DNA of 64,000 nt from Myxococcota bacterium (GTDB lineage Bacteria > Myxococcota_C > UBA6777), in NCBI GenBank assembly GCA_023150835.1, contig JAKLKB010000002.1:124001-188000 (forward strand), in the 5' to 3' direction. Both the position numbers and the translations under genes were made by a program. Each line of letters begins with the position of its first letter. The first letter of the stretch is position 1. The notes below the pieces were generated by a model. It was not told where the DNA came from. It saw nothing but the letters and a program-made list of their open reading frames with translations, and ran no database searches. Below, piece by piece: positions 5,024 to 11,435 of this stretch.

Positions 5024-5122
5024 GGCGACCTTTCTGTTGGGAATAGACGAAGGTGTTGAATTTGGGATGGCTGCTTTGTTTGTTGGGGAAGCAAACGAAG
5101 AACACAGTAGCCTGAAAGGGAG

Positions 5123-5206
5123 TGCGATAGGGGGGAGTCGAACCCCCACGGTTGTTAAACCGCTGGATCCTAAGTCCAGTGCGTCTACCAATTCCGCCAC
5201 CATCGC
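5123..5206 (-). tRNA. tRNA-Leu (anticodon UAG)
   Basis: Type II tRNA with a long variable arm. Acceptor strands GCGATGG and CTATCGC pair (one G-U). The anticodon loop is CTTAGGA on a CTGGA/TCCAG-type stem, giving anticodon UAG. The T arm contains GGTTCGACTCC. Discriminator base A; CCA is not encoded. Read as protein, it gives the familiar spurious MVAELVDALDLGSSG peptide. Confidence 0.97.
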
Positions 5207-5213
5207 AAGAAAC

Positions 5214-5247
5214 AAAGGGGTTTTTTGTTGTTTCAAAAAACCCCTTT
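5214..5247. promoter_or_regulatory. Perfect 13-bp inverted repeat between two tRNA genes
   Basis: AAAGGGGTTTTTT at 5214-5226 and its exact complement at 5235-5247, with an 8-nt loop. It fills the spacer between tRNA-Arg(UCG) and tRNA-Leu. The stem is A/T-rich at both ends and no separate U-tract follows it, so it fits a processing hairpin at least as well as a rho-independent terminator. As a terminator it would uncouple tRNA-Leu and tig from the upstream tRNAs. Confidence 0.8.
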
Positions 5248-5249
5248 TG

Positions 5250-5323
<74 letters not shown>

Positions 5324-5372
5324 AAAAGAGAGGACGTGGTTGTTTGTGTGCTTGGGTTTGGTAGAGCGTTGA

Positions 5373-5446
<74 letters not shown>

Positions 5447-7500: not shown

Positions 7501-7719
7501 TTGTCCAAAGAAGATGCAATTGAAATGGAAGGCACTGTCGAAGAAGCCCTTCCCAACGCGATGTTTCGTGTAAAGCTCGAAAATAACCACATGGTCCTCG
7601 CCCATATCTCCGGTCGGATGCGCAAATTTTTTATCCGCATCCTGCCCGGTGACAAAGTCACCGTCGAATTGAGTCCCTACGACCTCACTCGTGGGCGGAT
7701 CACCTATCGAAGCAAATAA
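7501..7719 (+). CDS. infA: Translation initiation factor IF-1
   Basis: Single S1/OB-fold domain protein, 72 residues, which binds the ribosomal A site during initiation. The sequence continues as [20 protein letters not shown] and ends [12 protein letters not shown], an excellent family match. No ATG is available in register. The start must be TTG 7501, with GAGAGG about 6 bases upstream, which gives the standard length. The last codons and the TAA stop form the first unit of an 18-bp tandem array. The gene appears to be monocistronic with a very short leader. Confidence 0.96.
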
Positions 7720-7832
7720 CCGCCTCGAAGCAAACAACCGCCTCGAAGCAGATCACCGCCTCGAAGCAAATCACCGCCTCGAAGCAAACAACCGCCTCGA
7801 AGCAAACAACCGCCTCGAAGCAAACAACCGCC
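7707..7832. repeat. 18-bp tandem array starting inside the infA stop region
   Basis: Seven contiguous 18-bp units of the type TCGAAGCAAACAACCGCC. The first unit includes the infA codons for R-S-K and the TAA stop; later units replace TAA with ACA or TCA. The array thus looks like amplification of the 3' end of infA. It ends 38 bp before the start of the next gene. Confidence 0.95.
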
Positions 7833-7870
7833 GTCGATCCGACCCCGCGCTTTCTTTGTGAGGCCCCGTC

Positions 7871-9215: not shown

Positions 9216-9229
9216 CGGAGGAGGATAGA

Positions 9230-11137
9230 TTGACCTCTCAAACCACCACTCGACGCGGTCGGTCGCCTTACTTTGATGCCGCTGACGTAATCCTAGGACT
9301 TCTTCGCTCCTCTCCTCTGGCGATGTGGGTCAACCCTGAGAGTTTCTCGAAGTATCTTGAACGCCGCCTCCCTGAGTACGTGCAAGACGGCGTCCTTGAT
9401 CTTGAACCGATCTGGCAAAGCATCACCCGCATCCCCGGCATCCAGCGGCAAGCGATGGAGACCTTTTTCTCTGAACTCAGCCGACAACCTCTGCCTTGGC
9501 CCACCCGCTCTCCGCATGCGCTCGGCGGCGCAACTCGCGTTGCCATCGACGAAGACAAACTACAGCGTGGCATCGATCAGATGGTCGCCTTGATGGAGTC
9601 CTCCACGCTCAAACAAAGCCTCTCCCCTGACAAGTTCCGACGCTATCTCGAACGCCGTCTCCCCGAAATGATCGACGTTCAAGGCATCGATCTTCAACCC
9701 CTTGAAACCACACTCCGCAAAAGTCTCAACTGCGAAGCCGAAGCTCTCGACGCCTACCTCCGCCGCCTCCACCGCTTTTCGCTCCCTTGGCCCATCAAAG
9801 ACATCACCCCCGCCGCCCCCACCAGCTCTTACAAAACATCCACCAGCCTCCGCCCTCTCCACTCTCCTCCCCCTCTGCGCGAAACCCCACCCGCCCACAC
9901 CTCCACACACCACACCACACCACCAACCTCCAACCCACCACAACCAACCTCACCCACCCAAGCCAACCTCCGCACCGCTCAGAAACGCAACCAACAAGCC
10001 GCCCTCCAACAAACCTCCGATACCCTTGTGCGCTTAATGCAAGCCTCCCCTCTTTCTGTCTTTCTTCGCTCCGATAACTTTCAACGCTACCTCCAACGCT
10101 GGCTCCCTGAATACACCGCCAACGGCTCCCTTGAAACACAGCCCATCTGGAAACACCTCGAACAAATCCCCTCCGTCGATACCAGCGCCCTGATCGCTTT
10201 CTTTAACGAAGTCTTACGCCAAGAATTCCCCTTCCCCGTCCTACCTCCCGAAGACTTCGACAATATCAAACGCCGACAAGCCACTTCCGCCTCACTTCAA
10301 ACTCTCCAACCCTCCGACTTTTCAACGCGATCCTCTCAACCCAGATCCCCCAACAACCGCCCCTCCGCTCCAATCCACAGCGCCCCCTCTTCTCCCTCCA
10401 ATCCCGCATGGGCCGACGGAACCTCATACGACTCCATGATCAGCGCACTCGAAAGGGATCTCGGCGATATCGACCTTGACGCCATCGAAGTCGTTCAAAC
10501 CGCCCAAGGAAACACACAAAACTCTTATGACCTAATGAATAAGCCTAGTTCTTCGACCCAAAACAAACTCCCGAACCCACGCAAACAGGCACGCTCTAGC
10601 TCGACACAAATCTCCGCGCTCTCATCGCAACTACAGAGCCTCCAAGACGCGGATATCGTGTTTGATGACCCTTCTTCTGTTCGACGCTCTCGCGCCTCTA
10701 TTCCTCTCCCTTCCCTTACTGATCTTCAAGAACGCGCACGCGCTTTCGGACAAAAAGCTTATGAATGGAATTGGCAACGCATCGCCGTCGTCTCTTGGAT
10801 CGCCCTTGGGATCGCTTTCTTTTCGCTTGGCATCTGGTGGCTCTCTCGACCGATCAAGCTCGGTGAAGCCATCGATCCGATCCCTTACAAACGCCATCTC
10901 CCCGTCCAACAAGCCTTCCTCAACGGACCCCACCTCACTTTCTCCCTTGACCCTTTCTACCAACACCTCTGGGAACCCGACACCCTCCGCCAACAATGTG
11001 GACGCCTCAACGCCATCCTCCTCCAAAAAGAGATCCGCACTCTCCGCATCTACACCACCAAAAACGACAAACCCTACAAGCTGATCCTCACTTGCCACAT
11101 CCTCCGCCACACACCCCTCAAAACACACAAACCCTGA
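9230..11137 (+). CDS. Membrane-anchored protein with three copies of an unrecognised 73-residue domain
   Basis: About 635 residues. I do not recognise the family. Three segments of exactly 73 residues, at about 19-91, 116-188 and 264-336, share FxRYLxRxLPE, a central acidic LxxxP, a second helix with AxxxFFxEL and a closing P-[WF]-P. They are separated by linkers; the second (about 75 residues) is Pro/Thr-rich. A Ser-rich disordered stretch follows, then one transmembrane segment at about 518-539 and a 96-residue C-terminal domain. With no N-terminal signal the repeats are probably cytoplasmic. I chose TTG 9230 because GGAGGAGG lies 6 bases upstream; the frame also runs back to a TTG at 9158 that lacks such a site. 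Confidence 0.75.
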   Translation: MTSQTTTRRGRSPYFDAADVILGLLRSSPLAMWVNPESFSKYLERRLPEYVQDGVLDLEPIWQSITRIPGIQRQAMETFFSELSRQPLPWPTRSPHALGGATRVAIDEDKLQRGIDQMVALMESSTLKQSLSPDKFRRYLERRLPEMIDVQGIDLQPLETTLRKSLNCEAEALDAYLRRLHRFSLPWPIKDITPAAPTSSYKTSTSLRPLHSPPPLRETPPAHTSTHHTTPPTSNPPQPTSPTQANLRTAQKRNQQAALQQTSDTLVRLMQASPLSVFLRSDNFQRYLQRWLPEYTANGSLETQPIWKHLEQIPSVDTSALIAFFNEVLRQEFPFPVLPPEDFDNIKRRQATSASLQTLQPSDFSTRSSQPRSPNNRPSAPIHSAPSSPSNPAWADGTSYDSMISALERDLGDIDLDAIEVVQTAQGNTQNSYDLMNKPSSSTQNKLPNPRKQARSSSTQISALSSQLQSLQDADIVFDDPSSVRRSRASIPLPSLTDLQERARAFGQKAYEWNWQRIAVVSWIALGIAFFSLGIWWLSRPIKLGEAIDPIPYKRHLPVQQAFLNGPHLTFSLDPFYQHLWEPDTLRQQCGRLNAILLQKEIRTLRIYTTKNDKPYKLILTCHILRHTPLKTHKP

Positions 11138-11162: not shown

Positions 11163-11435
11163 TTGATGGGTAGAAAACGCGGGCATCACGTGGAGGATAT
11201 CGAAAAGAAGAGTCCACGGAAAGCGCGGAAAGTACAGAAAGCGCGGAAAGTACGGAAAGCGCAGAAAGCGCGGAAAGTACAGAAAGCGCAGAAAGCGCAG
11301 AAAGCGCGGAAAGTACGGAAAGCGCGGAAAGCGCAGAAAGCGCGGAAAGTACAGAAAGCGCAGAAAGCGCGGAAAGTACAGAAAGCGCAGAAAGCGCAGA
11401 AAGCGCGGAAAGTACGGAAAGTACGGAAAGTACGG
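11163..11435 (-). repeat. dispersed repeat family C, copy C1: conserved flank plus 24-unit 9-bp array
   Basis: The flank at 11167-11219 (GCGGGCATCACG ... AAGAGTCCACGG) is the complement of the flank of copy C2 at 49013. The array at 11220-11435 is exactly 24 units of AAAG[CGC or TAC][A or G]G, giving four unit types. A block of seven units (types D-A-B-D-D-A-C) occurs twice, showing segmental duplication inside the array. Both strands stay open in one frame because the unit is 9 bp; the plus frame would encode a Lys/Arg/Val/Ala-rich peptide. Confidence 0.93.

Follow-up and report, generated by a model that had tools for sequence, protein, structure and literature searches.

The locus

The window, that is, the whole stretch of 64,000 nucleotides that was analysed, carries on its plus strand a gene for a 635-residue membrane-anchored protein with three copies of one domain. 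The gene starts with TTG at 9230, and both the reading frame and the ribosome-binding site are conserved in a sister genome (G001), whose ortholog is 90% identical. The features are as follows.

9217..9225, plus strand: ribosome-binding site GGAGGAGGA (GGAGGAGG at 9217-9224), preceding the TTG start
9230..11137, plus strand: CDS of the 635-residue three-domain protein
9266..9520, plus strand: domain copy 1 (R1), residues 13-97
9557..9811, plus strand: domain copy 2 (R2), residues 110-194
9812..10000, plus strand: Pro/Ser/Thr-rich linker (linker 1), residues 195-257
10001..10255, plus strand: domain copy 3 (R3), residues 258-342
10256..10780, plus strand: linker 2, low complexity with acidic stretches, residues 343-517
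10781..10837, plus strand: single transmembrane helix, residues 518-536 (hydropathy 2.15; no other transmembrane window in the protein)
10844..11134, plus strand: C-terminal outer domain, residues 539-635, predicted beta-beta-alpha-beta-beta (alignment A2; AlphaFold2 pLDDT 81)

A Pro-rich linker, one transmembrane helix near the C-terminus and a short outer domain had been proposed in the first-pass annotation; all three are present, the part behind the helix comprising about 97 residues.

The gene is adjoined by an MBL-fold hydrolase gene and a divergent membrane protein gene. No obvious operon partner was seen within about 9 kb, where neighbours were judged mostly by eye, and the neighbours differ between orthologs. 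Just downstream lies a minisatellite (11217-11430; 9/36-bp units, GAAAGCGCA-like, with about 24 copies of the 9-bp unit) that gives spurious ORFs on both strands. An 18-bp tandem repeat (7707-7837; 7.2 copies, 92%) separates two upstream genes, and next to a trigger-factor-like ORF three minus-strand tRNA genes in a row (Leu, Arg, Arg) occupy 5122-5446.

The three copies

Three segments of 73 residues each, first noticed by their equal length and shared motifs, do align without gaps, with pairwise identities of 21, 26 and 25 of 73. The pairs score 98-157 with BLOSUM62, where shuffled sequences average near -62 (z 9.1-12.5); no other off-diagonal self-match in the protein exceeds 21. The motifs [RK]YLxRxLPE, LxxxP and P-[WF]-P are seen in the repeats. 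The ungapped 73-residue frame holds for these three copies but not as a description of the domain, whose unit is about 80-85 residues, the structural model beginning a few residues earlier and closing with a short strand; relatives also show small indels. Nor are the copies strictly tandem, since successive copies begin at intervals of 97 and 148 residues and the Pro-rich linker precedes copy 3.

Pairwise Nei-Gojobori comparison with the G001 ortholog gives an overall dN/dS of 0.16. Copy 1 has 26 synonymous changes and no nonsynonymous ones (dN/dS 0), copy 2 gives 0.05 and copy 3 gives 0.14, while the linker between copies 2 and 3 is almost neutral (0.73 over residues 194-258). The low values in the copies and the high one in the linker mark a real coding gene in which selection keeps the repeats, copy 1 foremost. 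Identity of copy 1 with its counterpart in other genera is 51-57%, but with copies 2 and 3 only 31-34%. The copies therefore probably split before the genera did; this dating is read from sequence identities, and the tree of the copies is poorly resolved.

Fold and family searches

Starting from the three copies, profile iteration over relatives gave an alignment of 28 rows and 85 positions (A1), which all three window copies match over the whole domain. The combined alignment across both lineages described below has 44 rows (A1/A4). Conserved positions, in the protein numbering of copy 1, are L25, S28, L30, L43, L58, P60, L65, P69 and P95. AlphaFold2, given the 28-row alignment, returned a model with pLDDT 95.3 and pTM 0.84, made of helices at 2-14, 17-20 and 24-38, a short strand at 43-45, helices at 47-54 and 61-71, and a short strand near 80. 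The model supports a compact, mostly helical domain, as had been guessed from the equal repeat lengths.

The domain seems to be absent from Pfam, NCBIfam and PHROGs, which bears out the earlier statement that the repeat fits no known family. Pfam (E up to 10) and NCBIfam return nothing for the window protein, and no PHROG matches any copy. Structure prediction and Foldseek with one repeat had been proposed as a check; the model is confident and the PDB gives no significant match, the lowest Foldseek E being 2.3 and no solved structure reaching E<0.001 by any route. The second aligner, VIA, peaked at Z 3.8 (TFIIB, then AlkC). Nothing in a viral structure library resembles the model, and a literature search found no description of such a domain. 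Two candidate matches were set aside: the GTP-binding protein 5owv, the best hit of the sequence profile against the PDB (E 0.003 over 49 positions), was judged chance, and the MCM_C winged helix, found in one of the 28 copies (E 2.3e-4), did not recur in the others.

Distribution in the same phylum

The phylum sample consists of five genomes, all of one family. Each of the five holds 6-10 copies of the domain by profile search. Searching the other proteins of the source genome, a further check that had been suggested, did recover the domain, which is thus not unique to the window protein: three proteins carry it, the other two being one of more than 990 residues split over two contigs (C205/C187) and one of 575 residues (C204). 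The outer domain (A2) occurs once in each of three proteins of that genome.

Builds vary across the phylum, with one to three copies, long Pro-rich linkers, and an N-terminal domain of another kind (A3) present or not. The usual C-terminal end is one transmembrane helix followed by an outer domain of about 90 residues (A2). Departures include a soluble member (L029), anchored variants lacking the outer domain (L071, which stops at the transmembrane helix, L025 and L027) and a protein with an N-terminal PAS domain and the repeat-type domain C-terminal to it (L068; G004:C7).

A3 is a second uncatalogued domain, of about 90 residues, with invariant W3, W61, L62 and W79. It occurs 13 times in G004, often twice per protein with Pro/Ser-rich linkers and with or without transmembrane helix and outer domain; examples are L034:5764-7959 and, in G004, C39, C53, C29, C1 and C71. 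Comparison of A3 with the repeat (A1) showed no sign of kinship (hhalign 0.3%), and the two are kept apart.

Relatives in other lineages

A MYXO-CTERM-rich genome led to a second phylum, where one of 354 genomes gave a match (protein L089, E 2.7e-6). The class concerned (that of G712) is probably Myxococcota. In L089 a single domain is followed by a linker, one transmembrane helix and an outer domain. Searched with L089, its class gave relatives in 17 of 317 genomes, many of them proteins of about 290 residues with the same layout. The domain profiles of the two groups (A1 and A4) align at hhalign 98.2% (E 3e-14, 83 columns) and the outer-domain profiles at 81% (E 1.2e-5), with unrelated N-terminal and C-terminal domain profile pairs reaching 0.2-0.4% as negative controls. 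From these profile comparisons, the window domain and the one-domain proteins of the G712 class appear to share ancestry.

The genome of L089 also encodes a Ser/Thr kinase (L114) in which the domain sits between the Hanks kinase part and the transmembrane helix. This copy alone matches A1 weakly (E 0.3) and is linked through the L089 family (E 1.3e-7). In a sister genome, the kinase L103/L129 has the transmembrane helix and the outer domain without the repeat. This Ser/Thr kinase (L103:1-1767) has a weak TIGR02266 (PilZ-like) match between kinase part and helix; beyond the kinase part and this weak match, no family was matched by the proteins of the class.

In a broad sample beyond the family, one of 381 genomes gave a weak domain match, which falls in an MshEN protein's linker; two relatives of that protein, L085 and L086, align co-linearly. 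A small profile of these segments reached 90% against A1 and 92% against the profile of the other class (hhalign), and the MshEN-linker segment is a probable distant relative of the domain as far as such profiles tell. The MshEN proteins of these other candidate lineages (L075:658-2427, L085, L086) have a Pro-rich linker and an end that looks GAF-like by eye. A match in G539 (a 95-residue frame) and a partial match in L087 were judged chance.

Topology and outer domain

Lysines and arginines within 15 residues of the transmembrane helix number 106 on the N-terminal side and 36 on the C-terminal side over 27 proteins; the window protein by itself shows a weak excess (3 vs 2). Relatives also carry PAS and Ser/Thr kinase domains on the N-terminal side of the domain, and together with the charge bias this puts the repeats in the cytoplasm, where the earlier suggestion had them. 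The likely topology, as predicted from sequence, is N-in/C-out.

The outer-domain model is of moderate confidence (pLDDT 81), and its fold search gave only middling Z, the best being 6.2 (alpha-lytic protease prodomain-like), with FliF ring domains and T2SS pilotins at about 5.

Neighbouring genes of relatives

Kinase genes adjoin several relatives of the window gene, and they appeared at first to cluster there. Against sampled background the enrichment is not significant: seven kinases lie in 262 kb around domain genes, three of the seven being one syntenic locus, and eight in 400 kb of background. Since kinases are this common in the background, we count the neighbourhood as no evidence. The 64-kb window itself holds no kinase.

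The soluble member in G003 (L029) lies about 48 bp upstream of one kinase gene. The 1342-residue frame there (L029:3257-7282, minus strand) fuses a Ser/Thr kinase to an FGE-sulfatase domain and to a sigma-54 activator that has a Fis HTH. Within the G712 class, one family has a pseudopilin gene behind the one-domain gene; at L116:6586-9708 and its orthologs (G839-G843) the order is one-domain gene, then pseudopilin-like and TMEM260-like transferase genes, with a divergent sigma-54 response regulator adjoining.

Proposed function

We judge the chances about even that the window protein serves as a signalling adaptor, crossing the inner membrane once and docking partner proteins through its cytosolic repeats. 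Its N-terminal 515 residues or so would be cytoplasmic, displaying three diverged copies of the domain on flexible Pro-rich linkers, with a single helix spanning the membrane and leading to a small alpha/beta domain outside. Each copy may dock a partner protein, several copies providing avidity or accommodating different partners, and these partners would belong to signalling; the outer domain may sense the envelope or make the protein oligomerise. A signalling role is suggested by fusion of the domain to PAS, to a Ser/Thr kinase and, distantly, to MshEN, fusion being a guide and not proof. As a wider conjecture, which we put forward as rather improbable, the domain could be a common docking element that wires adaptors and PAS, Ser/Thr-kinase and c-di-GMP-type MshEN networks to the membrane in myxobacteria-like lineages.

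The foremost alternative, itself unlikely, is a structural or polarity scaffold with no part in signalling, in which linkers and repeats tether nucleoid or cytoskeleton to the envelope. The long variable linkers, the several copies and the anchored variants that lack the outer domain would all suit it, but occurrence of the domain in PAS, kinase and soluble proteins suggests regulation.

Less probable still is a role in assembly or docking within an envelope machine like the type IV pilus or a type II secretion system, with a ferredoxin-like or ring-building outer domain. The distant relative in MshEN proteins (the 90% hhalign match), the pseudopilin gene following a domain gene and the middling hits of the outer-domain model (FliF ring domains, T2SS pilotins) would fit such a role. 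The pseudopilin neighbour, however, is limited to that one family and one further genome; no such genes were noted near the window gene (within about 9 kb, mostly by eye); Z of 5-6 is the chance range for such folds; and the window protein is without any Pfam match (E up to 10).

We give least credence to a ToxR/CadC-like membrane-bound transcription regulator, with the repeats as unusual winged-helix DNA-binding domains before one transmembrane helix and an outer sensor: the overall layout agrees, the strand-helix-turn-helix-strand order in the second half of the model recalls a winged helix and one copy in 28 matched MCM_C, but Pfam finds no HTH in the window protein or in 13 other-class copies, and Foldseek with the pLDDT 95 model finds no winged-helix structure at E<1.

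The domain is under strong purifying selection and is shared by proteins of several kinds, in no fewer than two and perhaps three phylum-level lineages. A name for it would allow many membrane proteins now called hypothetical to be annotated and would open a way into the signalling of bacteria very rich in Ser/Thr kinases. The three-copy window protein would be a convenient bait for finding the domain's binding partner.

Comparison with known systems

The membrane-bound Hanks-type Ser/Thr kinases of myxobacteria-like bacteria share with the window protein an N-in orientation, one transmembrane helix and a small C-terminal outer domain, and two of them go further, L114 in carrying the repeat domain and L103 in having the outer domain behind the kinase. 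The window protein differs in having three domain copies and no kinase domain (Pfam, E up to 10).

The c-di-GMP-binding MshEN proteins (L084-L086) hold the distant relative of the domain in their Pro-rich linker region; unlike the window protein, they have no transmembrane helix and no repeats, and they combine an N-terminal MshEN domain with a GAF-like C-terminus. The window protein has no MshEN domain (Pfam, E up to 10).

Bitopic regulators of the ToxR/CadC/PsaE type likewise place a functional part in the cytoplasm, before one transmembrane helix and an outer domain, whereas the window protein has three domains on Pro-rich linkers and no recognisable winged helix.

Proteins with docking repeats on Pro-rich linkers, as a broad group, share with the window protein a small conserved domain in several copies and a disordered-looking, fast-evolving linker; what sets the window protein apart is that its domain belongs to no catalogued family.
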